DNA of 64,000 nucleotides from Candidatus Nitronereus thalassa (lineage in GTDB: Bacteria; Nitrospirota; Nitrospiria; Nitrospirales; UBA8639): contig NZ_JAQOUE010000001.1 of assembly GCF_032191465.1 (NCBI RefSeq), positions 496,001 through 560,000 on the forward strand, in the 5' to 3' direction. The notes under the pieces are model-generated. The model searched no databases and had not been told where the DNA came from. It saw only the letters and a list, made by a program, of their open reading frames with translations. Each line of letters starts with the position of its first letter. Positions within the stretch are counted from its first letter, which is position 1. The position numbers and the translations under genes were made by a program. Shown piece after piece: positions 9,901 to 42,793 of the stretch.

Positions 9901-12900
9901 GGATTGATTCGGCACCGCACTAGTTCCTAGAGCATTGGTGCCAATGTAATTGCCACGCACCATATTCCCAGTTGCCCCGGCTTGAATCAGGCGAACCCCC
10001 GCCCCACCATTGCCGGATAACACATTCCCCAAACCCGTCGCCGTGCTGCCAATTGAGTTATTTGGCGAATTATTGACGAGCACCCCGTGTAAGCCATTCC
10101 CTGCTGAGGTCCCGCCTGTGACGGTGGTCCCAATGTAATTGCCTTCGATCTTGTTGTTACCGCCAACGGCACCAATCAAAATTCCAGATTGGTCGAACCG
10201 GTTAATCACCAACCCCCGCACTGTACTATCACTCGTGCTCAGCGTCAGGCCCGAACTGCTCACCCCAGCATTGGAGCCGTCCAATTCAATCACCGGGACG
10301 TCTGCATAGCCCGCCTGCGTCGTACCGTCAATGATGACTGGATCGGTCAAACTCGGCAGAGCCGCCGTCGGCTGAATCGTATGAGGGCCCTCTCCATCGA
10401 GATCAAACGCAATCAGATCTTGGTCGGCTCTTGCGTTTGCGGCTATGATCGCTTCGCGTAAACTGCAATGCGTCAGGTTACACACCCCATCATTGCTATC
10501 GTCTGTTGCATTCACAGTGAAGAGCCCGGCAGAAAAGGGATCAGCATTAATTAAGAGCACCGAGGTCCCACGACCCGAAACGAAACCATCCAACAAGGGA
10601 TCAAAATCCACCGTGCCTTCCAGAACCACTTCAAAGTTGAAGTCCGTGCCCACATCCGGTTGGTATGTATAGATGCCTGGAATAAGTTGAAGCGAATGCT
10701 GGATTTCTGCAGCCACCTCCCCGTTCGTGCCACCGAAAACCGTGAAACTGGCTGCGCCAGATTGACGAATGTCAATCTCCAGAGGGAAGCCACTCACTAC
10801 CAGGGTATCCGTGCCACGACCGCTGACAAAACCATCCAAGGCTGGGTCAAAATCCACCAGGCCGTTGACATCAACCCTGAAGTTCAATGAGGCCGCCGCC
10901 GCATCGGAAATCACCAGGGTATAGTCTTGGTCCGGAATCAAGTTGACTCGATTCACGAGGCTCGTCCCAAATGAGCCCGTCTTGGTTGACACTTCAAACG
11001 TAGGACTTGTCAGGGCCGTCGCATCGATATGAATGGAGGAAGGTAGCGGTCCTGAAGGACGCCAGCCGGTGGTAACGCCATACGCCACTGGCCCAACGGA
11101 ACGGAAGGTGATCCATCCGATATTTTCTCCCCATGCTCGACCGCTCAATTCCCCTGTGACGGGATCAATGATTACGTGATAATTTGCCGTGGCACAACTA
11201 TCAGTATTTCGACACGACATACTGATCCACCCGACGTTTTCCGCCCAGGCGTAACCGTGCAGATGTCCAGTGCCATCATTCATAACGCCGCTGCCATTGC
11301 TCGGATGAAGATTAATCCATCCGATATTCTCCGCATAGGCGAAGCCTTCCACCGTTGTATCGGTGACGGCCACGCCGGGTCCAAAGATCGGTTGAAAATT
11401 AATCCAACCAATATTTTCACCATACGCGAATTGCTCCCCTGCTTCATCAGGATCGATATTGGAAGAAGGCGGCACAACCGGCACAACGCCTCGACCAGTC
11501 AGATTAATCGAAACCAACGGTTCATCGACATCATCACTGGCAATTTCCAGAACATCACCGTGACTACTTTCAGATGAAGGCGTGAACCTAACCTCGACAT
11601 CAGTACTGGCACCAGGCGTGAGCAGAAAGGGAGTGGTTGGAGTAAGGGTAAGCGCAAGGTCTCCAGTCCCACCAGACTCGAGGGACACAGACTCCAACGT
11701 AAGATTACTCGTTGGACCCACATTCGATATGGTCACAGTGGCAGACTGACTCGTGGCAAGCTCCACGTCACCAAAGTCGATGACGGTCGGCACGACCTGA
11801 ATGTCCGACTGAGAGACAGGAGGCGCAAAGGACATCGTGATAACGGAAATGTCCATACGGTCAACTTGACTTCCTGCGTTGGCAATAAACGCAACCTGAT
11901 TCCCGAAGACATCATTCAAACGCTGATCATCCGGTAGATTCGTGACTTGAAAGATCTCGCCCGTGGAGATCCGGTACACAAAAATCTCAAAATTCCCTGT
12001 GACGTTTGACTCCCAGGTGACCAAGTCTCCGTCGATGGTTGGCGCATACGTTACAAAACCCTCTAATTGCACGGCAGTCCGTCGTTCACTCGTGTCAACG
12101 TTCAAAAGCTCGATTGACCATGTCTTAGATGTACCCTCAGGAGGAAAATCAGAGGATTCCCACACAATCCATGCACCGCTGGTGTGCGGATACCGTTCGG
12201 ACAAATTTGCATCGTTGGCAATGTCTATAATCTGTCCGGTCGTCAGATCATAAGCCTTAATATTATGCTGTCCCTGATTGGGATTGGTGGATGAGTCAAA
12301 CTCTTCCCAGACAACCAATCGCTGGCCAATTTCGACGGACGTGGCAGCATGGGGACCGGATAGTGTAATTCGAGCAGGGCCAGAACTCCCAGAAAAATCC
12401 AGCAGTTGAATCGTGGACGCTCCAACGGGTCCTTCAACCCAAGCGATAGAATCGCCATGAATGCGAGCCTCCCGGACCAAGGCCGAATTCCGAAGCACGG
12501 TAATATTACCCGTAGATATTTGGTAAAGACGGATTTGCCCCAAAGTTGATGCATCTGATTCAAACGCTGTGTAGACGACGAAATCACCCTCTGCATCGTT
12601 TAATTGTTCACTTAAAACATCGTCCGAAGCAACCGCGACAGGCAGACCAATCACGCCGTTATCATTGATACGTTGCAGGAAAATGTCACCTGGTCCAAAT
12701 CCTGTTGAAATACGCTCCACTTGTGTAAACACCACATAGCGACCAGCAGAGTCTTCGCCTAACACGGGAGTTGTTGCAAACAAGGAGGACGGAGAAACGG
12801 TGACGTCAAACGAAGTCTGGCTGGGAGGAACCGGAAAGACAACATCGGTCAATTCCACCACCGAGTTATTAGCGGTGTCGAGTTCCGGCACGGAGTTGGT

Positions 12901-15900
12901 GACCGCAGCCGTAAAGGTGGTTTGACCCAACTCGGATGGCGTGACATCCAATATGATCTGCGTACTGGTATTGACTGACAGCGTGCCCAACTCGCACGTC
13001 ACGCCCGAGGACCCCGAGCAGAAGCCACCAGGGAAGGTGGCGCTATTGACGGTCATGCTGCTAGGTACCGTTGCGGTCAGCAGGGTATCCAAGGCCACGT
13101 CAGGACCGGGATTGGACACTTCCAAGACATAGACCAATGATTGTCCAATAAAGGCAGGATCCGGCGAATCTATGGCGGTCAAGGCAAGGTCCACCTGCGG
13201 ATTGCTCGTTTGCACGGTAATGTCTTGCCCATAAAACACAAAGATTTGGCCGGAGGCGGAGTTAGCATTGGGAGCGCCAACGATGACATCTATTAGACCG
13301 TCATTGTTGAGATCGCCCGCTGAGGACACGGCATACCCAAATTGACTATCTGGTTCGGTTCCTTCAAATACCAAATCTTGGTTCGGATCGTTTTGGTCCA
13401 CTATTAACGTGGCTTTGCCGGGATCAAAGGTATTGTTGAGAAAGGGTGATCCGACAATCAGGTCAGATGCCCCATCCCCATTAAAGTCTCCCGCATTCGC
13501 CACATCCCAACCAAATTGTTCACCAGTTTCAGCTCTCGATCGGATGGTAAAACCAGTGCCGGCACCGCCTTGCGTTTGAATGGTTCCACCTGGAGAATCA
13601 GTGGTTATACCAGGACACCCCAAGACCGCGTTGCCAGTGACAGCAGGATTCCACAGCGCCACCGAAACTCCACAGCGGTCACTGTCAGACGCGAGTATTG
13701 AACTGTCATCACCTTGCGTCACCCAATCAATAACCGCATCGTCCTGCCCACCTAATACGACAGCCATTCTCCCATTCTCATTATTCGCTAAAGGACTAAA
13801 GGGGAATGGGCTCCCAATGATAACATCACTGATCCCATCATTCGGAATGACCGAGTTTCCAAAATCCCCTGAGCGAACAACCACACCAAATTGCGGATTC
13901 CCAGAAGACCCGAGAACAAGACTATTCGGCCCAATCGTCCAATCAGCTTGGGAGGCCAGCAGCGTCACCGGGGAACTGCCCGTGTCATGCCCGAAAAAGA
14001 GATACACCTTCTTTTCCTCAGGCGCCCCGACCACCACATCGTCAATGCCGTCGTTGTTAAAATCGCCAGCGGTATACACCGAAGTGCCAAAGGCACTGCC
14101 GACGATCTCTCCTTGCAAGATCACATCCGCCTCGAAATCCGCCTGGCCTCCATACGCAATGTAAGCCTTCCCTGTTCCGGCACTAAAGGGCGCCCCGATG
14201 ATCACATCGTCAATGCCATCGTGGTTGAAATCTCCGGCATACGCCACCGAAGTACCTAGTTGCTCACCGGAACTGCCTGCCAGCACCCCCGCCTCGGTCC
14301 CCGAAGGCCCCACCAACAGATGCGCGGTTCCCGCGTCGCTGTTCGAACCCGGAGCCCCTACGATGAGGTCCGGAACCCCATCATTGTTGAAATCTCCCGC
14401 ATGTGACACGGCATGCCCTAGCCGCCCTAAGACGTTGGAGGACGCTGAGGGCAAATCTGCAGGTAAAATTTCTAATGTTGGGGGCGGGGGTGGGATATCA
14501 CCCACCTCTAAGAGGGTCGTAATTTGCTGGACATTGTTCTTGTAATTGGGATCAAATTCTCCAACAGTGCGCACTTCAACAGAAGCCACGCTATTCCCGG
14601 GCAACATATTGCTTGTAACTAAAAAGATTCTCACTAATGGAGTCCCTCCTGAAACAACAGTCCCCACATCACAGGTCACCGTCTCGGAGGTCGCCGTACA
14701 GACCGCACCGCTCGCACTATCAAAACTAGTTCCTTCCGGCAGGGTGAGGATGACCTCCACCTGACTGGCATCATCAGGACCGTTGTTCGCAAGCTGAATG
14801 AAGTATTCCGCCGACGTGCCTTGAATAATCGGATCTGGCAAGACCGAGAGATCAGCAGAAAGGTCAGCCTCAGGTCCACAAATATTTGGGGTGAACAGTT
14901 CTGCGGTATTCAGCATCACCGTATTCACGCCATCAAATGAAGTAAATCCACCGACAACCAGCACTTGTCCGGTTCCCAACACAGTCGCGGTAGGAAATTC
15001 GCGTTGAGTGCTCATAGGCGGCATTTCGGTCCAGAGACCTGAAGTGGGTGTATACAATTCACCGGCAAAAGCATTTGTGGAACTCCCACCGGCCGCAAAC
15101 ACACGACCGTCCGCCAGCCGCACCATCCCGAATCCGCGGCGACTGATATTTAAATCATCCGTCAAAATCCAGGTCCCGGTATTCGGATCATAGATTTCAC
15201 TTGGCGCACCATCCGTAATTTGCGAGCCCGCTACCAAGACTCTGCCATCTGCAAGGCGCACGGCCTGACGCGCCGAATGTGGCACTTGCATGTCGCCGGT
15301 AAGCGACCAGGGATTCTCGACGGCCGGATCTACGGTGTAGTCAAAGAGCTCAGCAGAACGAAACACTTCTCGGTCAGGAGACGGCAGCGTGTTGCGTCCT
15401 CCTGCAAGAAGTACGTTGCCATTCGTCAATAGCGTCGCTGTTGCAAACACTCTAGGGGTCAACAAGTTCCCACGAGTTGTCCATGTGTTGGTGCGGGGGT
15501 CAAAGACTTCGGTCGTCGTATCGGTGTTGTGTCCGCCGGCCACGAGCACCTGCCCGTTAGGCAGCAGAGTTGCGGTATGCGCGAACCGTGCGACACTCAT
15601 GGACTGATTAGGTCCGGTCAGCTCTGTCCATTGGCCTGTCGCAACATCGTACAATTCTGTTGAGGTCAAGACTTCAAGGTCTGCTTCGGCATTGATGGTT
15701 TGACCACCAGTGATCATAACTTTCCCGTTCGGCAGGAGTGTCGCGGTGTGAAAATTCCTTGAAACGTGCATCGAGCCCGTGGGTGTCCAGGAATTCGTTA
15801 CCGGATCATAGAGTTCGGCAGAACTCAAAAACCCGGATTGCCCAGGGGCCGGCTGCCCGCCAGCAATAAGAACGCGCCCATCGGGCAGCAAGGTGGCTGT

Positions 15901-18390
15901 GTGGGAGGCTCGAGGCGAGGATAGGTTTAAAGATTGACTCCAGGTTCCCGGATCAGCTGGCACCGGCAAGTCGCGGCAGACCTTGGCCACAAAAGCATCG
16001 ATCCCCCCGTTATTGGTTGACTGAAGCGGACTGTTCAAAGTCCCAGGGAAACCAGACGCGGGCGTATCGGTCAGACCAGCAACATGCGGATTGCCGTTCA
16101 AGTCTACGTCGACGCTAAACCCTGCATCCGTCCCACTGCTCCCAAGATAGGTCGAGATACCAAGTGCCGATCCATCCCCCTTCATGACAGTGACAAAGGC
16201 ATCCGTACCACCCCCGTTGATCGATTGAATGGTACTGGCGGCCGTGCCAGGAAACCCCGACGCTGGGGTTGAAGTGAATCCGGTGACGTGAATATCTCCT
16301 GCCCGGTCCACAGCAATGTCTTCACCCCGATCGACCCCGTTCCCTCCCAGATATGTCGAAAAGAGAATGGCCGATCCGTCCGCCGCAATTTTTGTGACGA
16401 ACCCGTCGATCTGTCCGCCTCCATAGGTGGGTTGAATCAGACTGCTGGACGCTCCCGGGAAATCCGAGGCGGTCGCATTGGTGAGTCCAGTCACGACACT
16501 GTTGCCCATGGCATCGACAGTAATCGCGGATGCCTGGTCGGACCCCGTGGTGCCAAGATAGGTGGAAAAATCGATGTCTGACCCGTCGCCTTTCAACTTA
16601 ATGATGAAAGCATCAAAGGTTCCAGCATTGGTGGACTGAATCGCGCTATTAACGGTACCGGGAAATTCAGAATTCGGACTATCCGTGAGCCCCGTAACAT
16701 AAGCATTCCCCGCTGTGTCCAAGGCAATATCAAATGCCTGGTCACTTCCAGTACCCCCCAGATAGGTGGAAAAAGCCAAACCCGATCCACCCGGCATCAC
16801 CTTTGCCACAAAACCATCGGACCCGCCGCCATTGACAGCCTGAATGAGACTGCCGCTCGTTCCGGGAAATCCCGAACCCTGCGAGGACGTACTCCCGGAT
16901 ACATAGGCATACCCTGCCCCATCAACCGCGATCCCAAGACCTGCATCGCGCTCAATGCCACCCAGATACGTGGCATACCCGATGGACGTGCCATTATCCG
17001 TGAGTTGGAGCACGAAAGCATCTTGTGATCCACCTCCATAGGTGGACTGGATCAAACTTCCTGCTGTTCCCGGAAAGCCAGAGCCTGGCGTATCGGTGAT
17101 CCCGGTGACATAGACTGTTCCTGCTCCATCTACCGCAAGCCGGCGACCACGGTCCGTTCCGCTTCCGCCAAGGTACGTGGAAAAGACCAAGGCTTTGCCG
17201 TCAGCCGTGATCTTGCTGACGAACACATCCTGTGTCCCGTCAAGTGTCGAATCAAAGATCGAACAATCCGGCGTCAAACACGTATCCGTAAAATCAACAG
17301 AGAAAGTGCCTCCCGTCACGTACATAGCCCCATCCGGGCCCACAGAGAGAAAGGCCCCCGTCTCGTACGTAGTCACGCCACCTGCGTCTCCTGTGGAAAC
17401 ATCTTCATCGCCCGAGCCGCCAAGATAGGTGGAGAAGAATAGAATCGGATCAATGATCACAGGTCGGGACTGATCATACTCCGCAAGAACAATACGAACA
17501 TGCGGGTTCTGAGCGGATGCCTCACGAGAACGGCGCCCGGGCTCTTCAGCACCAGCGGGGACGTGCTGACGAACCACACTCGTCCCTGGCTCGAGCACAT
17601 AGTGTCCCGCGATACGATGTTTCAGACCATCATCATCATATTGATAGACTACCGGCTGTTTGAGGAAAAGAGTTCCCGAAGGCAAAGCGAGGCGTATATG
17701 ACCGTCGCCATCAACCTCAATTTGCTCCGCCCCCTCAAACGCAAGTTGAATGAGGGAGGGATCGGCACCGGGTGCCACCACCAGGTCATATTCAAGCTGG
17801 CCATCACGGCCATAGTAGACCACATCAATCCCTGGATAGAGATCGGCATATGCAACTTTTTGATAGGTCGGGATCCCAGTCCGCCATTGTCTGGGGTCAT
17901 CCCCCAAAAAGTAATTGACGATGCCCGGCAGTTGTTCGCTTCCGGTAATAGACTGGGGCGTATCTGCGCCTACAAACGACATGCGCAGCATTTGTACCAC
18001 GGTTGATGATTCATCCGTTTTTGCCGCTAATGAATCGGCTGTGGGATCCATCAATGAAGAAGAATCTTTTTGACGATCTTTACCAGAAGGGACAGGTAAG
18101 GCTAAAAAAGCATCGGTCTCGGACAGTAGGAGCGTATACCCTTGTCCTCGTGAGAGAAACTTAAAACGTGCATCAGCCTGACCAAGATTTTCCTCAAATG
18201 ACAAAGGTAATTTTCCCCAACGAGAGGTCAAAGAAGACTTCGCACTGACGAGTGGCGTTTTTATAAGGCCTGTGGTTCCTTCAGGAAAGTGTGGTTCTGT
18301 CAGCGTGCCCCACACGTGCGAAGAGCCGACCAGGAAGAAACTACACAGGGTCCAGACGCTTGCGAAGAGAAATATTTTGGGTTGCCTCAT
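6919..18390 (-). CDS. Giant secreted mosaic protein with multiple beta-propellers and a beta-helix
   Basis: The 3823-residue protein has a signal peptide (about 1-30) and a good ribosome site (GAGGGG). Domains in order: a domain that usually precedes SBBP repeats (about 60-290); seven SBBP repeats with FSTYLGG (about 320-810); seven Kelch-like repeats with TATLLPNG and VLVAGG (about 815-1165); DUF11 (about 1190-1290); seven FG-GAP blades with DFNNDGxxD calcium loops (about 1320-1730); DUF11 (about 1735-1845); TolB-like propeller (about 1855-2185); choice-of-anchor-D/ASPM-like domain (about 2200-2300); four GENIGWI repeats (about 2320-2425); a CSLREA motif (about 2640); a right-handed beta-helix of about ten NVISGN/IGTD repeats (about 2740-3300). 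The tail has a DxNGDGxxD loop. No cell-wall or PEP-CTERM sorting signal is visible. It probably acts as an adhesin or matrix scaffold. It lies in the site A operon. Confidence 0.85.
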   Translation of the reverse strand: MRQPKIFLFASVWTLCSFFLVGSSHVWGTLTEPHFPEGTTGLIKTPLVSAKSSLTSRWGKLPLSFEENLGQADARFKFLSRGQGYTLLLSETDAFLALPVPSGKDRQKDSSSLMDPTADSLAAKTDESSTVVQMLRMSFVGADTPQSITGSEQLPGIVNYFLGDDPRQWRTGIPTYQKVAYADLYPGIDVVYYGRDGQLEYDLVVAPGADPSLIQLAFEGAEQIEVDGDGHIRLALPSGTLFLKQPVVYQYDDDGLKHRIAGHYVLEPGTSVVRQHVPAGAEEPGRRSREASAQNPHVRIVLAEYDQSRPVIIDPILFFSTYLGGSGDEDVSTGDAGGVTTYETGAFLSVGPDGAMYVTGGTFSVDFTDTCLTPDCSIFDSTLDGTQDVFVSKITADGKALVFSTYLGGSGTDRGRRLAVDGAGTVYVTGITDTPGSGFPGTAGSLIQSTYGGGSQDAFVLQLTDNGTSIGYATYLGGIERDAGLGIAVDGAGYAYVSGSTSSQGSGFPGTSGSLIQAVNGGGSDGFVAKVMPGGSGLAFSTYLGGTGSDQAFDIALDTAGNAYVTGLTDSPNSEFPGTVNSAIQSTNAGTFDAFIIKLKGDGSDIDFSTYLGTTGSDQASAITVDAMGNSVVTGLTNATASDFPGASSSLIQPTYGGGQIDGFVTKIAADGSAILFSTYLGGNGVDRGEDIAVDRAGDIHVTGFTSTPASGFPGTAASTIQSINGGGTDAFVTVMKGDGSALGISTYLGSSGTDAGFSVDVDLNGNPHVAGLTDTPASGFPGTLNSPLQSTNNGGIDAFVAKVCRDLPVPADPGTWSQSLNLSSPRASHTATLLPDGRVLIAGGQPAPGQSGFLSSAELYDPVTNSWTPTGSMHVSRNFHTATLLPNGKVMITGGQTINAEADLEVLTSTELYDVATGQWTELTGPNQSMSVARFAHTATLLPNGQVLVAGGHNTDTTTEVFDPRTNTWTTRGNLLTPRVFATATLLTNGNVLLAGGRNTLPSPDREVFRSAELFDYTVDPAVENPWSLTGDMQVPHSARQAVRLADGRVLVAGSQITDGAPSEIYDPNTGTWILTDDLNISRRGFGMVRLADGRVFAAGGSSTNAFAGELYTPTSGLWTEMPPMSTQREFPTATVLGTGQVLVVGGFTSFDGVNTVMLNTAELFTPNICGPEADLSADLSVLPDPIIQGTSAEYFIQLANNGPDDASQVEVILTLPEGTSFDSASGAVCTATSETVTCDVGTVVSGGTPLVRIFLVTSNMLPGNSVASVEVRTVGEFDPNYKNNVQQITTLLEVGDIPPPPPTLEILPADLPSASSNVLGRLGHAVSHAGDFNNDGVPDLIVGAPGSNSDAGTAHLLVGPSGTEAGVLAGSSGEQLGTSVAYAGDFNHDGIDDVIIGAPFSAGTGKAYIAYGGQADFEADVILQGEIVGSAFGTSVYTAGDFNNDGIDDVVVGAPEEKKVYLFFGHDTGSSPVTLLASQADWTIGPNSLVLGSSGNPQFGVVVRSGDFGNSVIPNDGISDVIIGSPFPFSPLANNENGRMAVVLGGQDDAVIDWVTQGDDSSILASDSDRCGVSVALWNPAVTGNAVLGCPGITTDSPGGTIQTQGGAGTGFTIRSRAETGEQFGWDVANAGDFNGDGASDLIVGSPFLNNTFDPGKATLIVDQNDPNQDLVFEGTEPDSQFGYAVSSAGDLNNDGLIDVIVGAPNANSASGQIFVFYGQDITVQTSNPQVDLALTAIDSPDPAFIGQSLVYVLEVSNPGPDVALDTLLTATVPSSMTVNSATFPGGFCSGSSGVTCELGTLSVNTSTQIILDVTPSELGQTTFTAAVTNSVPELDTANNSVVELTDVVFPVPPSQTSFDVTVSPSSLFATTPVLGEDSAGRYVVFTQVERISTGFGPGDIFLQRINDNGVIGLPVAVASDDVLSEQLNDAEGDFVVYTAFESDASTLGQIRLYQISTGNITVLRNSALVREARIHGDSIAWVEGPVGASTIQLLDFSGSSGPARITLSGPHAATSVEIGQRLVVWEEFDSSTNPNQGQHNIKAYDLTTGQIIDIANDANLSERYPHTSGAWIVWESSDFPPEGTSKTWSIELLNVDTSERRTAVQLEGFVTYAPTIDGDLVTWESNVTGNFEIFVYRISTGEIFQVTNLPDDQRLNDVFGNQVAFIANAGSQVDRMDISVITMSFAPPVSQSDIQVVPTVIDFGDVELATSQSATVTISNVGPTSNLTLESVSLESGGTGDLALTLTPTTPFLLTPGASTDVEVRFTPSSESSHGDVLEIASDDVDEPLVSINLTGRGVVPVVPPSSNIDPDEAGEQFAYGENIGWINFQPIFGPGVAVTDTTVEGFAYAENIGWINLHPSNGSGVMNDGTGHLHGYAWAENVGWISMSCRNTDSCATANYHVIIDPVTGELSGRAWGENIGWITFRSVGPVAYGVTTGWRPSGPLPSSIHIDATALTSPTFEVSTKTGSFGTSLVNRVNLIPDQDYTLVISDAAAASLNFRVDVNGLVDFDPALDGFVSGRGTDTLVVSGFPLEIDIRQSGAASFTVFGGTNGEVAAEIQHSLQLIPGIYTYQPDVGTDFNFEVVLEGTVDFDPLLDGFVSGRGTSVLLINADPFSAGLFTVNATDDSNDGVCNLTHCSLREAIIAANARADQDLIAFDLDGEGPHTIQPTAALPSLTDPVIIDGTTQAGYADVPVIELDGSNAGVSSSGLTLSTSDSTVRGLVINRFDQSGILIGAVGGNNKIEGNYIGTTVTGGTSAGNGLHGVLVNNSPNNSIGSTATGLGNVLSGNGGAGVRLIQAGATGNMVRGNYIGTNALGTSAVPNQSGVVLTLGANQNLIGGTATGEQNVISGNTAEGVLITLAGSDANRIVGNYIGTAAQGKVALSNGTYGLFISNAANNVVGGVLNGERNVISGNTLDGILLTGSENKGTQIVGNFIGTDIDGLTAVANGNDGIELRNVAETIVGGPSANERNLISGNGQDGIRIEGTVATNNTVLGNFIGTDVTGNRSLGNTGSGIRVNNGSGNTIGSFVRNGGNVISGNIQHGVELNGVASVNALLGNLIGTNATGTSAVPNGQNGVRIFKAQQNVIGGTGPNDGNLISGNGASGIEISQVEATGNIIQGNYIGTDVTGTVALGNTVFGMNLALASNNIIGGNTPAARNVISGNSTGIRFSGAVNTGNVVQGNFIGTDKDGTGALGNTGDGIVFVGSANGNLIGGTIPGAGNVISGNGDRGIEFQASAGPNNRVEGNLIGTDFTGTSAIGNTSNGILVQANGMIIGGTTEGAGNVISGNASGITITKGASMNLVMGNYIGTTISGNSAVPNAAGGVILLDGASENMIGPDNLIAFNGTDGVALTANAGVGNTITQNRMHSNGDLGIDVGFDGVTLNDDDDVDVGPNQRQNFPVLSFSSGGQGQATVRGTLSSFPLTTYTIEFFGTESCDPAGLGEGGIFLGSQVIETNGQGEAKFVAQVSGADPSGIAMTATATAPDGSTSEFSACLQDSDNDGLADGVDLEPNDKSKTFSDGPVLGGSTFGEVLTEGNQQLMISADPGPTGIRLFTDPSGGGQEARVSVCMPNNLDESVLRLERDTEVTVRCGSVDLEVFTGNVTADIQLTGDSATLTVTQGSRAVVDPETGTITAPSTNIAPVMVAFEVNGEPATVELGAGNELTADPSEGTFTTPSTNPSPVVVVVGGKPVTVVAGENAKFVEIDIKPGSEDNPINLGSNGKIPVAILSSATFDATTVDSLTVTLADAQVRVKGNGTAQASEEDVNGDGRTDLVVHIETEGLQLTGEATSATLEGQTTTGQRIKGTDVVTVVP

Positions 18391-21957: not shown

Positions 21958-23808
21958 TTACAACGCCAAGCACCGAAGCGTGATTTGAAACTTTCCGGGA
22001 TCACTCGTGCCATTGTTTCGGACTTGAACAAAGAACCGATCAGTCTCCACACCGGGAGCGACGGTATCATTTGCCGTCTCTTGTTCCAGAATTTCTAAAT
22101 CAGCATCAGACGGCCCACCCTCAGGGAGTGGGGTGAGAATCACCGAACCCACCAACAGCACACTATCAGCCCGTCCGCCGTTGCTCGTCACACAATTGGC
22201 GTCGGTCGCTTGGGTCTCCAACGCATCCACGATTATTTCATCAGACGTGGCGGTAAACACCTCAACGTGCTTATTACTGCGAGCAAGTTCGCGCCAGAAT
22301 CCATTCCCATCACTGCGCAGGCTCAGGCTTTCGCCGTCTTCCAATTCGTAGAAAGACGAATTACTTTTCAGAATAATGTTCAACACGCCACAGGATCCGC
22401 CGGAGACACAATTGCCTACGTCAATCACTGGAGGCGCGCCTTGTTCAGCCACATACCGCAGATCGAGTACGGTCCCATCGACAGCCTGGGGGATAGCCGC
22501 CAGTCCTCCATGACCAGCGATAACTCCCGCGGACTGAGAATTTCTCAAAATGAGCGCACTGGAACTCAAGGTTGGCCCATTGTCAGGGACAAGCAATCCA
22601 TTCGCATCGACGCTTGCCGTCGCGGTTTTGATGATGAGCGATCCTTCAACATTGGTTTCCTGCTCCAACATGGCATCGCCCATGACCATGGCATCCTTCA
22701 TCATCATGGTGTCACCTTCGAGCAGGGCCTCACCCATGACCGTCGCTTGTCCCTCCATCATGGTATCGCCCTTGATCATGGCATCCTGCATCATCATGGT
22801 GTCGCCTTCGAGCAATGCTTCGCCCATCACGGTCGCCTGCCCTTCCATCATCGTATTGCCCATCACCATGGCATCGGACATGAGCATGGCATTGCCTTCG
22901 AGTTGGGTATCGCCCATCACCGTGGCCTTTTGCATCATCATGGCGTCACCTTCCAGCTCCGTGGTGCCCATCACCTTGGCATCTCCCATCAGCATCGCCT
23001 TCTTTTCGATCATGACCTCTTTATTCGCCCCGGCATCCAGCACCAAATTGCCGGTCGCCGCAATCGTGGCGTCGCCCGAAGGGGCAACAGAAATAAGATT
23101 TGTCAGCACATCGAGATTTTGAGAGACAGTCGTGAGTGCCGCATTCAAGGCATCAATCTGCGCTTGAAAATCCGGTCCCACGCTTCTCAACACCACTTCT
23201 AATTCCAGAGGGTGACTCGTTCCCAGGGTCTCTTTGCTGTCCCAATCGACCCGGATGGGATCATTCGAATCTGGCACCAGCGCAAGCCCATGGTTCTGGA
23301 CCGAACCATCCACCCAGTCCTCCACCACATTCGTGGGGATGTCCACGCTGATAAACTGCTTCTCTCCAGTGACAACGGGAACGGTAAGAAGGGTCGGGCC
23401 AAGAGCCGGAGCCGTATTGGCACTCAGACTCGACTCGACCCACGGTCCCAAAACCGTGTGCACGGTAAAGGCACCCGGATTCTGCACACGGTCTGTAAAT
23501 AATCGAAGTGTGACCTTCTCGATCGTGCTCGTCGCAGGAATCGGCGACAGATCAAACCGAACAAAGGCATGCCGCTCACCACCCCCCCCCACATTCCGCA
23601 CAGAGAGATTGACTCTATTCCCATTCGTCTGATTTGCCGCCTGGAGATTGATATGACTGTCGTCGGTGGCATGCAGCGTGATCGCCTCAACATCAGAGTT
23701 GCCGAACAATCCGACGACCAACAGCAACACCCCAAAAGGTATGGCCCGAAAAATGATTTCGCGATAAGAAAACTGAAAGTAAGTTCGAGGAGAGCGACTC
23801 TTCATCAT
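21958..23808 (-). CDS. Secreted DNRLRE-domain protein with methionine-rich hexapeptide repeats
   Basis: The 616-residue protein has a signal anchor or peptide (about 18-42) and an N-terminal DNRLRE-type beta-sandwich (about 45-210; DSHINLQAANQ, HAFVRFDLSPIP, VVEDWVDGS). A short helical segment is followed at about residues 270-390 by some twenty hexapeptides of the form [A/T]-x-x-[M/E]-G-[D/N/E/Q]. These contain about 27 Met in 112 residues. The C-terminal part includes an N-V/G-rich beta domain and a DUF11-like end (ILEQETANDTVAPGVETDRFFVQVRNNGT). A G9 tract lies in-frame at 23582-23590. It is the first gene after promoter site B. It could be a left-handed beta-helix fibre; metal binding by Met is possible but unproven. 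Confidence 0.75.
   Translation of the reverse strand: MMKSRSPRTYFQFSYREIIFRAIPFGVLLLVVGLFGNSDVEAITLHATDDSHINLQAANQTNGNRVNLSVRNVGGGGERHAFVRFDLSPIPATSTIEKVTLRLFTDRVQNPGAFTVHTVLGPWVESSLSANTAPALGPTLLTVPVVTGEKQFISVDIPTNVVEDWVDGSVQNHGLALVPDSNDPIRVDWDSKETLGTSHPLELEVVLRSVGPDFQAQIDALNAALTTVSQNLDVLTNLISVAPSGDATIAATGNLVLDAGANKEVMIEKKAMLMGDAKVMGTTELEGDAMMMQKATVMGDTQLEGNAMLMSDAMVMGNTMMEGQATVMGEALLEGDTMMMQDAMIKGDTMMEGQATVMGEALLEGDTMMMKDAMVMGDAMLEQETNVEGSLIIKTATASVDANGLLVPDNGPTLSSSALILRNSQSAGVIAGHGGLAAIPQAVDGTVLDLRYVAEQGAPPVIDVGNCVSGGSCGVLNIILKSNSSFYELEDGESLSLRSDGNGFWRELARSNKHVEVFTATSDEIIVDALETQATDANCVTSNGGRADSVLLVGSVILTPLPEGGPSDADLEILEQETANDTVAPGVETDRFFVQVRNNGTSDPGKFQITLRCLAL
23582..23590 (-). repeat. G9 homopolymer inside the Met-rich protein gene
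   Basis: Nine G on the coding strand encode part of V-G-G-G-G-E, in frame in this copy. Confidence 0.8.
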
Positions 23809-25533: not shown

Positions 25534-27288
25534 CTACTCGCAGCCGAGATCCGTGCGCAGGTCTTGAATGCGCGTGGCGAGTTCCGCGGCACTTTCGCCT
25601 TCCACAAAGTCCGGAGGCTTGGGCAACCCATCCGTCTTTTTATACGCCGACGCCAGTTGATCGCAGGCCTCCACGATCTGCCCTTGTTCAATCAGATCGC
25701 CAGCCGCCTCAATCATATTGATCAACGCATTCAAACGATTCTCCGCGGAGTTGCCATTACCGCTGCCTGCCAACGTGCCTTCCGAGACGGCCGTATCGAT
25801 GAACTCCAGAATGTTGGCAATCTGCTCTTCGGGTGGCACCTCGGTCACGATACCGGTGCCGCTTATCGCCACGCTCACCAACGACTCATCCGGATCATCA
25901 CTGGTGATGTCCAAGGAATCCGCGGCCGCGCCTTCGCTGGATGGCGTAAACGTCACTTCGACATCCGCACTGCCATTCGCGGGAATCACGAGCGGAGTAG
26001 CCGGCACCGTGGTCAGCGTAAAGTCGCCGGTGCCTCCGGAGGAGAGCGCAAAATCCGAGACCGTCAGGTCCGCATCGGGCACGACATTTTGAATGGTCAC
26101 GATGGCCGATTGACTGCTGAACAACTCGACATTCCCGAAGTTGAGCGACGGAGGGGCCACCTCGATATCCGGCTGTGCATCCGGCACAAAGGAAAAGGTT
26201 GTTGTGAAGACATCCCAATTATCAGTTGATATCTCAAGATAGACCACTTGGTTGCCGAAGACGTTGTTCAGCCGTTGATCATTGGAACGGTTAGTAACTT
26301 GAAATGTTTCTCTAGTAGAAATCCGATAAAGATAAATTTCATAGTTTCCCGTCACATTAGATTCCCAAGTTATGATGTCTTTATCTATAGTGGGAACAAA
26401 TGAAATGAACTCCTCTAATTGTAGTATGTTGTGGATTGTCCTCCGCTCACCGGTATCCACGTTCAGAATTTCAATCTTCCTATTTTGTGGTGTTCCTTCC
26501 TGATCCAGATCGTGGGCTTGCCACACAATCCATGGGCCACTGGTGCAAGGAAACCGTTCAGAGGCATTTGGATCAACTGCCACATCAAAATCCAACCCCG
26601 TGACCAAATCGTAAGCCCGAATATTGTGCTGTATGTGCTGGGGATCAACGGACGCATCAAATTCTTCCCACACCACAAACCGTGATCCGATTTCGGGAGA
26701 CGAAGCTACATGCGATCCTGAAATCGTAGTGGGACCCAATCCGGTGCCTAAAGTGCTGATGTCCAGTAATTGGATGGCAAGAGAATCGGCTGGCCCCTCG
26801 ACCCATACGACATAATTGCCATGAATACGCGCTTCGCGAAGGGTTGCCAATTCGCGCAATATGGTGGTCTCACCAGTGGATATTTGATGTAGCTTAATTC
26901 GACCAGACAAACCACCGACAGTTGGTTCCTCAAAAGCCGTATAAACAATAAAGTCGCCATCAGCATCAGGTAACTCTTCATCCAGAACCTCATCTGACGC
27001 GATGAGGATAGGGCTGCCTATGATGCCGCTATCATCAATCCGCTGCATAAGAATGTTCGCTGGGCCGAAACCTGTTGGAATTTGTTCAAATTGGGTATAC
27101 ACCACATAACCTCCAGTTGCGTCTTCCTCTATACTGGGGAGGGATTCAAAAAATGGATTCGGTGTAGTGGTCACCTGAAACTCCGTGGTCACTAACTGAT
27201 CCGCATGCACCGTCGCCCCCCAGAGGTACACAACCATCAATCCAACAATCAGACTTACAGCCTGCATGGGAAAGTCTTTCTTTCGCAT
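25534..27288 (-). CDS. Secreted TolB-like propeller / choice-of-anchor-D / FIMAH-like protein
   Basis: The 584-residue protein has a signal peptide (about 1-29) and a strong ribosome site (GGAGGAA). A TolB-like repeat region (about 30-345; motifs DGDFIVYTAFE, REARIHGNYVVWVEGP, ITWESNVTGNYEIYLYRISTRETFQVT) is followed by an ASPM/choice-of-anchor-D beta-sandwich (about 370-480; IEVAPPSLNFGNVELFSSQSAIVTI). It ends in a helical FIMAH-like domain (about 490-584; ENRLNALINMIEAAGDLIEQG). The first two modules also occur inside the giant protein at 6919-18390. It is probably a surface or matrix protein of unknown ligand. It is in the site C operon. Confidence 0.75.
   Translation of the reverse strand: MRKKDFPMQAVSLIVGLMVVYLWGATVHADQLVTTEFQVTTTPNPFFESLPSIEEDATGGYVVYTQFEQIPTGFGPANILMQRIDDSGIIGSPILIASDEVLDEELPDADGDFIVYTAFEEPTVGGLSGRIKLHQISTGETTILRELATLREARIHGNYVVWVEGPADSLAIQLLDISTLGTGLGPTTISGSHVASSPEIGSRFVVWEEFDASVDPQHIQHNIRAYDLVTGLDFDVAVDPNASERFPCTSGPWIVWQAHDLDQEGTPQNRKIEILNVDTGERRTIHNILQLEEFISFVPTIDKDIITWESNVTGNYEIYLYRISTRETFQVTNRSNDQRLNNVFGNQVVYLEISTDNWDVFTTTFSFVPDAQPDIEVAPPSLNFGNVELFSSQSAIVTIQNVVPDADLTVSDFALSSGGTGDFTLTTVPATPLVIPANGSADVEVTFTPSSEGAAADSLDITSDDPDESLVSVAISGTGIVTEVPPEEQIANILEFIDTAVSEGTLAGSGNGNSAENRLNALINMIEAAGDLIEQGQIVEACDQLASAYKKTDGLPKPPDFVEGESAAELATRIQDLRTDLGCE
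25563..26142 (-). repeat. 580-bp near-identical repeat, copy 1 (copy 2 at 27431-28010)
   Basis: The 3' portions of the two TolB-like genes are almost base-identical with an offset of 1868 bp; I saw about one difference. The upstream portions differ clearly. This indicates recent duplication or gene conversion. Confidence 0.85.
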
Positions 27289-27401: not shown

Positions 27402-29153
27402 TCACTCGCAGCCCAGATCATTACGCAGATCTTGAATGCGCGTGGCCAGTTCCGCGGCACTTTCGCCTTCCACAAAGTCCGGAGGCTTGGGCAACCCATC
27501 CGTCTTTTTATACGCCGACGCCAGTTGATCGCAGGCCTCCACGATCTGCCCTTGTTCAATCAGATCGCCAGCCGCCTCAATCATATTGATCAACGCATTC
27601 AAACGATTCTCCGCGGAGTTGCCATTACCGCTGCCTGCCAACGTGCCTTCCGAGACGGCCGTATCGATGAACTCCAGAATGTTGGCAATCTGCTCTTCGG
27701 GTGGCACCTCGGTCACGATACCGGTGCCGCTTATCGCCACGCTCACCAACGACTCATCCGGATCATCACTGGTGATGTCCAAGGAATCCGCGGCCGCGCC
27801 TTCGCTGGATGGCGTAAACGTCACTTCGACATCCGCACTGCCATTCGCGGGAATCACGAGCGGAGTAGCCGGCACCGTGGTCAGCGTAAAGTCGCCGGTG
27901 CCTCCGGAGGAGAGCGCAAAATCCGAGACCGTCAGGTCCGCATCGGGCACGACATTTTGAATGGTCACGATGGCCGATTGACTGCTGAACAACTCGACAT
28001 TCCCGAAGTTAACCGACGGGGGGGCTACCTCGATATCCGGCTGCGCATCCGGGACAAAGGAAAAGGTGCTTGCAAACACGTTAAAATTATCGAGATCGTT
28101 AAGATCTTCACCCCACACCACTTGGTTGCCGAAGACGTTATTCAAACGTTTCCCCTCTGGACGATTGGTAACCTGAAAGGTTTCCCCTGTGGAAATCCGG
28201 TAAAGAAAAATTTCAAAATTTCCCGTGACATTCGACTCCCATGCAACAAAGTCACCGTCGATGGTCGGCGCAAGTGTTGCAACGTTCTCTTCCTGGACAT
28301 TCACAATCGTCCGACGTTCTCCCGTGTCAACTTTGAATAATTCAATAGAGTAAGTCCTCAAGGTTCCCTCTGGCGGCAGGGTCATAGACTCCCAGACAAT
28401 CCACGAGCCGCTTGTGTAGGGACGCCGTTCATTCAGGTTCGAGTCGACCGCTACATCAAAATCCAACCCGGTGACCAAATCGTAAGCCCGAATATTGTGC
28501 TGTATGTGCTGGGGATTTGTGGACAAATCGATTTCTTCCCACACCACAAACCGGGAACCGATTTCTGGATCCGTTGCGGCATTCGTTCCTGAAATCGTAA
28601 TGGGCCCCAAGCCAGTACCTAAGGTGCTCAAATCCAAGAATTGTAGCGTCGTCGATCCCGGAGTGCCTTCGACCCACACGACATGATTGTCATGGATACG
28701 CGCCTCGCGAACCGTTGCCAACTCCCGCAACACGGTAGACTGCCCGGTGGAAATTTGATAGAGCATGATGCGTCCCAACGTACTCGTACTACTTTCAAAG
28801 GCCGTGTACACAATGAAGTCGCCATCTCCGTCTTGCATCTGTTCATCCAGTACATCATCTGGCGTAATGCGAACCGAAACTCCGACGAGACCGGTGTCGT
28901 TGATTCGTTGCAAGAAAATATCACCAGGTCCAAATCCGGTCTGACTGAATTCTTGACGGGTATACGTCACATAGCGTCCCGTCGCGTCTTCACCAAGGCG
29001 TGGTATTGATTCAAAGAGTGGACTCGGCGTAGTCGTCACCTGAAACTCCGTGGTCACCAACTGGTCAGCATGCACCGTTGCCCCCCAGAGCCAGACATTC
29101 ATCAATCCAACAACCACGCTCAATGAATAAGGAAGTGTTTTATTTCTAGTCAT
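27402..29153 (-). CDS. Secreted TolB-like propeller / choice-of-anchor-D / FIMAH-like protein, paralog
   Basis: I place the start at 29153 (MTRNKTLPY) because AAAGGAG lies upstream and a signal peptide follows. The longer frame to 29294 adds an unlikely 47 residues. The 583-residue product has the same layout as its neighbour: TolB-like repeats, choice-of-anchor-D domain, FIMAH-like end. The C-terminal 200 residues are nearly identical while the propeller is diverged. It lies in the site C operon. Confidence 0.75.
   Translation of the reverse strand: MTRNKTLPYSLSVVVGLMNVWLWGATVHADQLVTTEFQVTTTPSPLFESIPRLGEDATGRYVTYTRQEFSQTGFGPGDIFLQRINDTGLVGVSVRITPDDVLDEQMQDGDGDFIVYTAFESSTSTLGRIMLYQISTGQSTVLRELATVREARIHDNHVVWVEGTPGSTTLQFLDLSTLGTGLGPITISGTNAATDPEIGSRFVVWEEIDLSTNPQHIQHNIRAYDLVTGLDFDVAVDSNLNERRPYTSGSWIVWESMTLPPEGTLRTYSIELFKVDTGERRTIVNVQEENVATLAPTIDGDFVAWESNVTGNFEIFLYRISTGETFQVTNRPEGKRLNNVFGNQVVWGEDLNDLDNFNVFASTFSFVPDAQPDIEVAPPSVNFGNVELFSSQSAIVTIQNVVPDADLTVSDFALSSGGTGDFTLTTVPATPLVIPANGSADVEVTFTPSSEGAAADSLDITSDDPDESLVSVAISGTGIVTEVPPEEQIANILEFIDTAVSEGTLAGSGNGNSAENRLNALINMIEAAGDLIEQGQIVEACDQLASAYKKTDGLPKPPDFVEGESAAELATRIQDLRNDLGCE
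27431..28010 (-). repeat. 580-bp near-identical repeat, copy 2
   Basis: This is the counterpart of 25563-26142. Confidence 0.85.
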
Positions 29154-29293
29154 CCCATTGTCTCCTTTAATCGTCCTGTTTTCTGCGAGCCGATTCTGTT
29201 TGAAGGCTGCACAATGCCTGGACGGCGTATCCCTCAAAGCCTTAGCTAGACGGTCCGCGTTTCCTTCCAGTAAATGGTAAGTATCTTCCGTCA

Positions 29294-31309
29294 TTACTCA
29301 TTGATTAATCCGACATGGCGGACTCTGGTCTGTTCCGGGATGCGCGCGTGTAACCCTGCCGACAGCACCTGCACCTGCTGAAGCAATGATGCATTCTGCC
29401 GTTTGAGCGCCTCCAATTCTGCATCAATGGCGTGGACTTTCTTCTGGTACGTCTCAGACACCTGGTGCTGCTTTTGTAATTCATTAAGCAGCATGGCCGT
29501 GAGTTTGTAGTACTGCACGGTTTCGACTTGGCCATCCTCGCCGTACACCACGAGATCCGGATAGACCGCGGCGACTTCTTCGGCGATCAAGCCATATTGC
29601 ATGGGTTTTGCCCCATCGGCCGTTGGTTGGATATACCGAAACGTGACAGGCCGTAAGGCCAACAGCCCATCGCTCGTGTCACCCATGTCTTGAATGTCTT
29701 CTTTGAATCGGCGGGAAGATGACACCGTCCCCAGTTGGCCGTTGGAATCGATGACCACGCTCACGGCATCGGCAACCCCGGTGGTGACACCGCGGATACC
29801 CGCGATAAACGTCTGTGCCTGCCCGCTGCCTATTCGAATGGTCGAACTATCGGCGGATTGGCCAGAATGGCCGATATGAATGTTTGACGAACCATTTGAC
29901 ACATTTCCTCCTGCTGAGTTTCCAATTGCGATATTGCCCGAACCCACACCAATGGTTTCCAAAGCACGACTGCCTATCGCCGTGTTGCTATTTCCATTAT
30001 TAAACCGCAGGGCGAAATACCCGAGAGCCGTATTGTTGCTCTTGTTAACCCCACTATTTTGCAAAGCATCTGTCCCTATTGCCGTGTTAAAACTTCCCGT
30101 TGTGTTATCATTAAGAGCCATGAATCCCAGCCCAGTGTTTGAGATTCCAGATGTATTTGAACGAAGAGCAAATGCACCAAAGCTAGAATTTCCACCGCCT
30201 GTCGAAGTATTTTGAAGCGCATTAACCCCCATAGCTGTATTGCTGCTTCCAGTAGGACTGCTCGCCAGCGCATTAACGCCAACGGAGGTATTTGTTGTCC
30301 CTGTCAGGACATTAGGGTTTAGCGGACCTGCCGGACCTTGGGGCCCTGCTGGTCCGGCCACACCTTGCGGGCCTGGCGGTCCTGCTGGTCCAGGACCTCC
30401 TTGTGGGCCTTGGGGACCGGGAGCCCCATCCGCGCCTGCTGGTCCGGGATCACCCTGCGGCCCTTGCAGATTACCGGCCAAGGTCCATGTGGTCGCATCG
30501 ATCTTTTCGAAGTACTTGCCAGTCTCCGCATCAAGGTAGAAATCGCCAACCACGCCATCGCCAATCGCGGGCGCGCCATTGCCCGTGAGCCACTGCGACC
30601 CATCCGCTCCCAGGGCTCCATCCGCGCCGGCAGGACCGGGAGGCCCTTGTGTTCCAACAGGTCCGGCAACACCTTGTGGACCCTGTGGACCTGGAGCACC
30701 ATCCGCGCCGGCTGGTCCTGGATCACCCTGCGGACCTTGGGGGCCTGGAGGTCCGGCCACACCCTGCGGGCCGGGCGGCCCCGGGTCACCTTGCGGGCCC
30801 GCCGGGCCGTCATACAACACCCGTAACCCCACGACTTGCGCTTGGCTCGCAAACCGCACGCTGACATAACTCTGTCCCGGCACCAACAGCGTCGTCGGCA
30901 CTAATCCCGTGACATCAATCTCCGTCACTTCATCTTCGATGACCGCCTGCGTCAGATTCGTCTGCGTATTGGTAAACGCATCATGCGCATCGCCGACATC
31001 CGCCACTGAAATCTCCACATCATAGGTCAATGATTCTGTTTTCTTTGGGATCATCACAACCTTGGCACTGGTGAAGGCGTCGAGGTTGTCCGGTACCGCA
31101 AAACTAAAATGCGTCGCATTGCCCAGATTCGCTACCGCCCAATGCCCGACGGTCTTTCCTTCATCTTTCTTCGCGGGCTTGATCCATAATTCATTGGCCC
31201 ACCCTGGGTGCCCCATACCCAGAACCAGGATCACGCTTAAGATTGTGAGCCAAGACGTTGTGATGTGTATTCCCTTTGTCCTTGTGTTCACATCTCGAAA
31301 GTGTCGCAT
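29294..31309 (-). CDS. Secreted collagen-like fibre protein with YadA-type head and S74 chaperone domain
   Basis: The 671-residue protein has a ribosome site (AAAGGAG) and a signal peptide (about 1-40). A beta domain (40-175) leads to Gly-X-Y collagen repeats (about 175-330), interrupted by a folded insert containing [21 protein letters not shown]. YadA-like head repeats follow (about 335-500; [18 protein letters not shown]). A peptidase S74 intramolecular chaperone domain (about 525-600; [24 protein letters not shown]) and a terminal coiled coil complete it. S74 domains trimerise fibres and cut themselves off. I infer a trimeric surface or extracellular fibre. Confidence 0.85.
30364..30604 (-). 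repeat. 241-bp repeat shared with the neighbouring collagen-like gene, copy 1
   Basis: It is base-identical, as far as I could compare, to 31957-32197 (offset 1593). It covers the non-collagen insert plus flanking Gly-X-Y repeats. Confidence 0.8.
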
Positions 31310-31378: not shown

Positions 31379-32746
31379 TTAAAGTTTATCTCCGACAATC
31401 AAAAATGGGCCCGTTGAGCTTCCATCATCCGGTTCATAATCAAACGTATTGCCCAAGATGAATAAGGGATTAAATGCCTTACACGGTGGTGCCGGTTCCG
31501 TGTCGAGTAAAAACGTATTAATAGTAGCAGCATAGGCACCATCTCCATAAAACGGCCATGTGATGTGATGGAAAGTAAGAACATTAAGCGTATCTGGATC
31601 CACTGCATCTTGTTGAAACACGGTACACGCCATGAATTCTTGGATCTCAATCACTCGAGACCCCAAAAGGTCTGCAGATCGTGGAACAAAGATTTGAGTG
31701 GTTTGCAACTCGGGATGGTCGTCCACACTCGAAACCGTAAAGTTACCGGTCCCGTCATAAACTATCAGTGGAACGATTGTTCCCGGAGTACCGGGATCAG
31801 ACCCCGGGGGAGGTGGAATGCCTTCATTGCCGATGAATCCAAAGGCTACGACTTTGGTTGAGAAAGCAGAGTGGACTGCAGGACCTGGTGGTCCTTCTGG
31901 CCCCGGAATGCCCTGTGGTCCTTGAAGTCCAACAGGGCCGGGATCACCCTGCAACCCTTGCGGGCCTGGCGGTCCTGCTGGTCCAGGACCTCCTTGTGGG
32001 CCTTGGGGACCGGGAGCCCCATCCGCGCCTGCTGGTCCGGGATCACCCTGCGGCCCTTGCAGATTACCGGCCAAGGTCCATGTGGTCGCATCGATCTTTT
32101 CGAAGTACTTGCCAGTCTCCGCATCAAGGTAGAAATCGCCAACCACGCCATCGCCAATCGCGGGCGCGCCATTGCCCGTGAGCCACTGCGACCCATTCGC
32201 TCCCGGGGCACCATTTGCGCCGGCAGGACCAGGCGTTCCTTGTGGTCCAACAGGTCCGGCGACACCTTGTGGCCCTTGCGGCCCCTGTGGACCGGGAGCG
32301 CCATCCGCGCCGGCTGGTCCTGGATCACCCTGCGGACCTTGGGGCCCCACAGCACCAATGGTCAGATCGTATTCATCATGATGGCTCTGCCCGTTGCCCG
32401 TGGACACGCTGAGCAGGTAGTCGCCAGCTCCTAGCGCTGCCGACCAGGTCGCCACGATTTCCGTTGGCATGGCCGTGACGATGCTCAACTCGCCAAATTC
32501 GCCGAGCGTGACACTCAAGTCCGACAGGTTCACAAAATCAAAATCTTGCCCGGTGATGGTGAACGTGCTTTGCGGTGTGCTGTCATCCACCACGACCTCG
32601 ACTTCCTTGATCAACAAATGTGCTCCGGGGGCACTTGGATCAGGTTTCACCCCCAACGTCGCCGGGGGCCAACCAAGCTCCAGCAGCAAGACAAGGGTTA
32701 TAAGTCCGCACAGTGGATGGCGGGATAGATGTCGATACCGTTTCAT
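31379..32746 (-). CDS. Secreted collagen-like protein with IPT/TIG-like N-terminal domain
   Basis: I choose the ATG at 32746, eight bases after AAAGGAG; the frame begins at 32764. The 455-residue product has a signal peptide (about 1-30) and an IPT/TIG-like domain (about 40-130; [27 protein letters not shown]). Gly-X-Y repeats carry the same insert as the neighbouring gene, and a C-terminal globular domain (about 285-455) follows. It probably forms triple-helical secreted fibres. It lies in the site C operon. Confidence 0.75.
31957..32197 (-). repeat. 241-bp repeat shared with the neighbouring collagen-like gene, copy 2
   Basis: This is the counterpart of 30364-30604. Confidence 0.8.
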
Positions 32747-32912
32747 AATAAAATCTCCTTTCATCCGGGACGCGTCCGTGTCCCTCTTCTAAGAAGACGT
32801 TGGCTCGTGTGTGCGTCACTTGACAGACGACTCTCTCTTGCTCGTGCGCTCATGTCTTGAAAGTGACGCAGCTGCCTCTCTACTTTTGCTTTTTGTTTCG
32901 AAGGAAGAAGGA

Positions 32913-34573: not shown

Positions 34574-35440
34574 TTAACACCGTTCGCAAAAAGCGCCATC
34601 GTTGTTCAGGCTGCTGCGTTGGGCATCACAGGACTTTCTTCCTGTCACCGTAAATAGCACGGAGTAGGTCAACGTATCCTCTCTTTTTAGATATGCGAGA
34701 AATCGATCCTGCACCTCGTGTGCCTTCTCCGTATTTCCCAGCGCTTGAACCATTTGAGGCAATGCAATGTCGAGTTTTAGTTTCCATAACTCATAATTTA
34801 CTGCATCGATCTCGCCAGCAATCAGGTGATAACTATCCACACGCACGGACACATCTTGAAGGGTTGCACGATGACAGAACGTAAACAATTTTCGTCCGAG
34901 AAATGGATCGAACCCTTTCGTCCTCAAATAGTTCACCACTTCATGGACCAGCGGCTCCAAATCTTCGTCTTCAGGAAAGTGCCACAGCAATTGGCCGTCG
35001 AGATCCTGGAGAATGATTCGCCCGTTTGGTCGACAGACCCGCACCATCTCTTCGATGGCTCGCAAAGGGCTCTCCAAATATTCCAGGAGAAACCGGCAAT
35101 AGACGACATCGAATCGACCGGAAGGAAAAGGCAATGCATAGGCATTGGCCGAAAGCACATGCGCCGTCGAACCCGTGTGCTGCTGATTGGATCGAAAAAA
35201 CTGTAGACGGTTCAGACTCATATCAATGCCAACGACTCTCGTGGGGGAAAAACTCTCCGCTACGGCCTGCAATAACGGCGCCGAACCGCACCCGACTTCC
35301 AACACGTTTCTGGCTCCTTCCATATATTCCGCAAAATATGTCTCAACCCACTGCGGACCATCAACCTTTCTGTATAATCGCGAGGCCTCGCGAGGATCGT
35401 CCATCACATAGGATGCCGTCGTAGTGTCGAGTTGACCCAT
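34574..35440 (-). CDS. Class I SAM-dependent methyltransferase
   Basis: The 288-residue protein has the Rossmann motif VLEVGCGSAPLL (about 45-56), motif II acidic residue VVGIDMS, and post-motifs AYALPFPSGRFDVVYCRFLLEYL and RVCRPNGRIILQDLD, as in Methyltransf_11/UbiE-like enzymes. A ribosome site (AGAGGG) precedes it. It follows the 35461-36588 gene by 20 bp in the site D operon. I infer methylation of the acyl or polyketide product; the acceptor atom is unknown. Confidence 0.8.
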   Translation of the reverse strand: MGQLDTTTASYVMDDPREASRLYRKVDGPQWVETYFAEYMEGARNVLEVGCGSAPLLQAVAESFSPTRVVGIDMSLNRLQFFRSNQQHTGSTAHVLSANAYALPFPSGRFDVVYCRFLLEYLESPLRAIEEMVRVCRPNGRIILQDLDGQLLWHFPEDEDLEPLVHEVVNYLRTKGFDPFLGRKLFTFCHRATLQDVSVRVDSYHLIAGEIDAVNYELWKLKLDIALPQMVQALGNTEKAHEVQDRFLAYLKREDTLTYSVLFTVTGRKSCDAQRSSLNNDGAFCERC

Positions 35441-35460
35441 GACTCACAACCCTCTTGTTC

Positions 35461-37316: not shown

Positions 37317-37351
37317 TACACTTGGTTAGAGTTAAGCTTGTCTCTATTTTT

Positions 37352-38698: not shown

Positions 38699-38739
38699 CC
38701 GGTGGTGGTCGTGTTGAAAAAACTCTTATGGGGTTTGGG

Positions 38740-38994
38740 TCATCCTGTTGATGCCAGCGTTGCTTTTTCAAACAAATCGACAAGTTCTTTGATATTTCGC
38801 GCATTCGTCAGCTCAGCCCGAGGCACGCGAATTTTCAATTCCTTCATCGAACGTGACACCACTTCCACCACTTCCAGGGAGTCCGCACCCAATTCTTCCA
38901 TGCTGTCGGTTTCGACCACCTCGCGATCGGCTAAGCCTTCAACAATTTCTTGGATATTCTTTTTCACGACCTCGAAAATTTCCGCACGACTCAT
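38740..38994 (-). CDS. Acyl carrier protein
   Basis: The 84-residue acidic protein has the phosphopantetheine site S39 in GADSLEVVEVV and a strong ribosome site (AAAGGAG). It would carry the growing chain for the discrete enzymes around it. A phosphopantetheinyl transferase is not encoded nearby and must come from elsewhere. Confidence 0.92.
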   Translation of the reverse strand: MSRAEIFEVVKKNIQEIVEGLADREVVETDSMEELGADSLEVVEVVSRSMKELKIRVPRAELTNARNIKELVDLFEKATLASTG

Positions 38995-39007
38995 ACGACT
39001 TCTCCTT

Positions 39008-42702: not shown

Positions 42703-42793
42703 CGATCTCTCCATCTTTAGCACGACAAGTTTTTGTGTTTCATCTCCTGATCTGCCAAAAACTTTAGGCAAATCCGCATCATTTCCTATTGAG

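Follow-up and report, generated by a model that had tools for sequence, protein, structure and literature searches.

What does a run of methionine-rich hexapeptides do in the middle of a protein that appears to be exported? The question is raised by a 616-aa multidomain protein of Candidatus Nitronereus thalassa, which is encoded on the minus strand of the window (the whole stretch of 64,000 nucleotides that was analysed, C1:496001-560000). The explanation that we favour, with moderate confidence, is a beta-solenoid stalk or spacer in an exported, probably trimeric surface fibre, with a Met coat for packing or adhesion.

Gene and domain layout

The gene was divided into the following features.

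21958..23808 (-): whole gene, apparently secreted multidomain protein of 616 aa, ATG start at 23808
23683..23808 (-): residues 1-42, predicted Sec-type signal peptide, with the predicted cut between VEA and ITLH
23218..23682 (-): residues 43-197, DNRLRE/CBM96 domain (Pfam PF24517, NCBIfam NF033679)
23092..23157 (-): residues 218-239, short coiled coil (heptad a/d I218, L221, L225, V228, L232, L235, I239)
22999..23070 (-): residues 247-270, degenerate hexads before the array (sequence; AF2-model strands 16-19, 25-34)
22639..22998 (-): residues 271-390, 20 Met-rich hexapeptides, predicted beta-solenoid (pattern, profiles, AF2)
22783..22854 (-): residues 319-342, copy of the 5-hexad unit (TMMEGQ ATVMGE ALLEGD TMMMQD)
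22693..22764 (-): residues 349-372, second copy, which differs by 11 synonymous changes and a single Q-to-K replacement
21961..22638 (-): residues 391-616, C-terminal domain(s), 226 residues, no relatives found in 235 genomes, the PDB or phages

The DNRLRE/CBM96 domain was identified with E values of 1.4e-16 for PF24517 (61.2 bits, curated cut-off 26) and 5.7e-23 for NF033679 (81.8 bits, curated cut-off 34). Judged by its family, it is a possible sugar binder; binding of the alginate or glycan type was demonstrated for the CBM96 founder TM6-N4, a different protein from the one described here (PMC9971899). The coiled-coil region contains a helix (214-235) in the AF2 model, and the C-terminal end of the protein has a weak CARDB-like match that lies under the Pfam cut-off. 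An earlier sequence-only reading of this DNA had called the protein secreted. This agrees with the predicted signal peptide, whose position is conserved in three paralogs (L002 in the same genome, L003 and L004 in the same genus): sequence comparison places the ITLHVTDD motif at the start of the mature part in each. Two antisense ORFs (22210-23202 and 22550-23122, +) were rejected as genes because differences between the array copies are almost all synonymous in the minus-strand frame.

The hexapeptide array and its methionines

The array has exactly 20 hexads in a single register, covers 120 residues (271-390), and follows the pattern A/T-x-[VLMI]-[M/E]-G-[DNEQ]. Position 1 is only A or T and position 3 is only V, L, I, or M in 20/20 hexads. 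The sequence-only reading had placed the array at 22645-22995, right to within a few bases of the minus-strand interval 22639-22998, and its estimates of about 20 hexapeptides and 27 Met were confirmed by counting. The 27 Met among 120 array residues compare with 3 in the other 496 residues of the protein (Fisher P about 1e-17), and the largest count in 120 residues across 2,000 shuffles was 16. Hexad positions 2, 3, and 4 hold 11, 5, and 11 Met, and positions 1, 5, and 6 hold none. Neither His nor Cys occurs in the 20 hexads.

By beta-helix hexad geometry, 22 of the array Met would point outward and five inward. With three hexads per coil, hexads 1-9 have Glu (position 4) on one face and leave the remaining two to Met. 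Because the later duplicated units are five hexads long and a coil is three, each of them moves the pattern out of phase, and Glu and Met rotate over all three faces. Met would coat the outside of the solenoid and not a single side, and the earlier picture of Met lining one face was not borne out. Seven MxM pairs are present in the array, starting at residues 272, 290, 308, 314, 338, 368, and 374.

Fold of the array

A published beta-helix motif, [LIVMA]-X3-[ASCVTN]-X, has positions i and i+4 facing inward (PMC538250). The array agrees with the imperfect tandem form of this hexad motif, with inward V/L/I/M at i and A/T at i+4 in every hexad; the outward strand positions are i+1 and i+5. Against a profile made from 29 phage hexad proteins, the 616-aa protein scored 95.8 bits, and 300 shuffles of the array reached at most 6.9. 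When 120 orders of the hexad columns were scored with the phage profile, a swap of the two outward columns was the only one to outscore the native order. PHROG 7964 matched the array protein at E 8e-29, and the best phmmer match in the PDB was YdcK (1.5e-5), with gamma-carbonic anhydrase and bactofilin weaker. The score against the YdcK family model NF040481 was 29.6 bits, below the curated cut-off of 350, and no Pfam match to the bactofilin domain was found at E up to 1. The array also lacks the catalytic His and the CoA-binding loop insertions of hexapeptide acyltransferases.

Structure prediction had been suggested as a check, with disorder as the opposite outcome. Given an alignment that included 29 phage hexad-protein rows (i.e., hexad proteins throughout), AF2 modelled the array as a solenoid with a strand every 6 residues and pLDDT of 80-85 in most of its length. 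Single-sequence AF2 was poor, with a mean pLDDT of 39 for the whole protein and, within the array, 51-62 in about the first half and 37-50 in the remainder. AF2 over-predicts beta-solenoids for repeat sequences (PMC11795689). Foldseek searches with both AF2 models gave no significant match. Over 100 residues, the array model and bactofilin 6rib superposed at 1.4 A. In VIA-align, right-handed solenoids including bactofilin aligned at 1.4-3 A, and left-handed proteins (LpxD, YdcK) aligned with high Z yet at an rmsd of about 12 A. Read from these superpositions, the AF2 array model is apparently right-handed like bactofilin. YdcK, the nearest sequence relative of the array, is left-handed. Of the proposed "left-handed beta-helix or similar solenoid", the solenoid fold was supported, but its left-handedness is uncertain because YdcK and the model disagree and AF2 over-predicts repeat solenoids. 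The hexad pattern, the YdcK and phage profiles, and the AF2 model all point to a hexapeptide-type parallel beta-solenoid.

Repeat copies and selection

Tandem Repeats Finder identified periods of 54 bp (3 hexads) and 90 bp (5 hexads). The sub-repeats had been described as near-identical in DNA; however, the 90-bp array matches its own consensus at 79%, and the most alike 72-nt copies (residues 319-342 and 349-372) have 12 base differences, 11 synonymous and 1 replacement. Changes between these copies occupy 11 of 13.3 synonymous sites and 1 of 58.7 non-synonymous sites. So few replacements would arise by chance with P about 1e-7, calculated as a simple binomial without selection.

The 24-aa copies are old: their synonymous sites are saturated, and their amino acids have been kept. 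The 11-to-1 synonymous excess indicates constraint on the amino acids of the array, Met included; as only one codon specifies Met, every Met that was kept marks a codon in which no base change was accepted. Selection against long DNA repeats could raise synonymous divergence, yet it would not preserve amino acids. Recent expansion of the array was rejected on the synonymous saturation between copies, and nothing points to a recent change in length, contrary to the suggestion that the array can lengthen or shorten.

Met-rich relatives, paralogs, and neighbouring genes

We searched for similar arrays with a 36-base degenerate hexad pattern that needs Met at position 2 in two adjacent hexads, so sparser Met arrays could escape it. 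In 235 genomes of the same order, the pattern occurred only at the window's two sites. It had 3 matches in 84,980 genomes and 1 in viral contigs, none of them a clear relative: L015, L017, and L018 were rejected as short ORFs, and L016 as a Met-rich linker. L016 (4151-4714, Candidatus Kaiserbacteria) is a thioredoxin-like protein whose linker (MMEGDTMMEGDAMMQKSG) is hexad-like in sequence only. A protein-based search of genome contigs and viral contigs returned no relatives, and no orthologue of the 616-aa protein was found in the searched genomes. The search for Met-hexapeptide proteins that the sequence-only reading had recommended thus gave no Met-coated match in about 85,000 other genomes.

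Paralogs L002-L004 share the signal peptide and the DNRLRE domain with the 616-aa protein. After this domain they have a collagen-like Gxx rod where the 616-aa protein has the coiled coil and solenoid, so a rod fills the same position in both forms. Their C-terminal domain differs from that of the 616-aa protein.

The neighbouring genes code for two collagen-like proteins, of which one carries an S74 domain, two Lcl_C proteins, and choice-of-anchor/ASH proteins. Together they have the look of a surface-protein or matrix-protein gene set. The S74 domain is a fibre-trimer chaperone. The collagen-like pair (29294-31309 and 31379-32764, -), one member of which carries the Peptidase_S74 chaperone domain, has in common a near-identical collagen-like stretch and a non-collagen insert. 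A secreted choice-of-anchor-D protein is duplicated in tandem (25534-27288 and 27402-29294, -); the two copies are near-identical in their C-terminal parts and have diverged more in their propeller-like N-terminal parts. A 3823-aa protein (6919-18390, -) has partial GlxA (kelch-type), SBBP, DUF11-type, and CSLREA matches. Farther off, a run of genes (34574-42810, -) that includes ketoacyl synthase, SDR, enoyl-CoA hydratase, FabA-like, and methyltransferase genes may be a cluster of the polyketide or fatty-acid-like type.

No copper-resistance, MsrP, or MsrA genes were recognised among the neighbouring ORFs scanned. The only copper-named matches among these neighbours were a weak NosD beta-helix in ORF 1646-2482 and the partial GlxA in the 3823-aa protein. 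The genome contains seven PF00174 (MsrP-type fold) matches and two MsrA genes, all outside the window.

Proposed role and alternatives

We propose that the solenoid, with three hexads per coil and about 6.7 coils plus the degenerate lead-in hexads, would form a rigid stalk or spacer that links the N-terminal DNRLRE/CBM96-type domain to the C-terminal domain. The host structure would be an exported surface or matrix fibre. It is probably trimeric, as suggested by the collagen-like rods of the paralogs, since collagen implies trimers, and by the short coiled coil. Outward Met at i+1 and i+5 would coat the rod with thioethers and so make a hydrophobic, flexible surface that has acidic turns; its likeliest use is lateral subunit packing, fibre bundling, or adhesion.

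A thioether-coated rod with an extracellular chemical role, either soft-metal binding or a renewable oxidant sink, is unlikely in our judgement, and we found no record of a hexapeptide solenoid used as a Met-tiled chemical rod. The sequence-only reading had raised both Cu(I) binding and an oxidant sink; an array without His or Cys, and scanned neighbouring ORFs without copper-resistance or Msr genes, leave these roles unsupported. A sacrificial sink would work like the one proposed for MrpX/BcrX, with exposed Met oxidised by hypochlorite or similar oxidants and then re-reduced by a Met-sulfoxide reductase that is itself exported. The Met are dense and would be exposed in a protein that looks exported, the amino acids including Met are kept between array copies, and the genome has its seven PF00174 matches and two MsrA genes. 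PF00174 spans many oxidoreductases, however, so this count is unspecific for MsrP, and the window contains neither PF00174 nor MsrA genes. The NCBIfam scan produced no Met-rich-peptide model, and the short MrpX/BcrX peptides beside msrPQ differ from the 616-aa protein, which is large, has several domains, and lies among fibre genes. All this makes a sink quite unlikely. Still less probable is a Cu(I)- or Ag(I)-binding rod whose thioether sites would be made by outward MxM pairs, both Met of a pair on the same strand, that stack from coil to coil. Both Met of all seven pairs would face outward by hexad geometry, but they are scattered on all three faces with no single stripe, the array is without His or Cys, and no copper-resistance gene was recognised among the scanned neighbours.

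The array could instead be a disordered, Met-rich, low-complexity linker that owes its hexad look to tandem duplication alone. Similar words (...GAMMEGDTMMEGDAMMQKSG...) occur in L016 between an apparent membrane anchor and the thioredoxin-like domain, and the tendency of AF2 to over-predict solenoids also favours such a linker. We find it very doubtful given the conservation of positions 1 (A/T) and 3 (V/L/I/M) in all 20 hexads, the constraint seen in the 11-to-1 synonymous excess, and the specificity of the phage hexad profile over shuffled arrays (95.8 bits vs a maximum of 6.9). The solenoid stalk in a surface fibre remains our preferred reading.

Comparison with known systems

The hexapeptide beta-solenoid signature is known; what appears unusual is the predicted Met-covered exterior, unmatched in the genomes searched. 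The best sequence matches of the array in the PDB and PHROGs are the YdcK/GNAxVxG proteins (NF040481; PHROG 7964 and 5070; PDB 2f9c and 2pig), which have an A-x-V-x-G-[DN] hexad in the same register. Phage hexad proteins (80 loci) have mainly R, Q, W, K and Y, S, F at the outward positions, and Met at about 1% or less at every hexad position, a figure that is if anything inflated by the few loci whose reading frame was wrong. The phage hexad proteins seen are stand-alone, whereas the array is one part of a multidomain protein that has an apparent signal peptide. Outward residues in the hexapeptide relatives examined are polar or aromatic, and Met takes about half of the outward positions in the array. 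The placement of Met at these positions, together with amino acids held while synonymous sites were saturated, suggests that the Met surface is itself useful. A Met solenoid of this kind would present thioethers at regular intervals on a simple scaffold.

Bactofilins (PDB 6rib and 2n3d) resemble the array model as solenoids that superpose at 1.4 A over 100 residues, but they are cytoskeletal proteins of about 110 aa, unlike the longer protein with its apparent signal peptide and additional domains. Bactofilin is a right-handed triangular solenoid (PMC12448750), and hydrophobic patches were proposed to drive BacM polymerisation (PMC4372379). MrpX/BcrX are short MXKDX-repeat peptides adjoining msrPQ, and in Brucella also an ECF sigma factor (PMC8315932). 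They are Met-rich and exported, as is predicted here, but the 20-hexad array has no MXKDX repeat and the window has no PF00174 gene. The DNRLRE/CBM96 collagen-rod proteins (L002-L004) are alike in signal peptide and N-terminal domain and differ in rod and C-terminal domain. Within one genus, related surface proteins thus have either a collagen-like rod or a putative beta-solenoid at the corresponding position.
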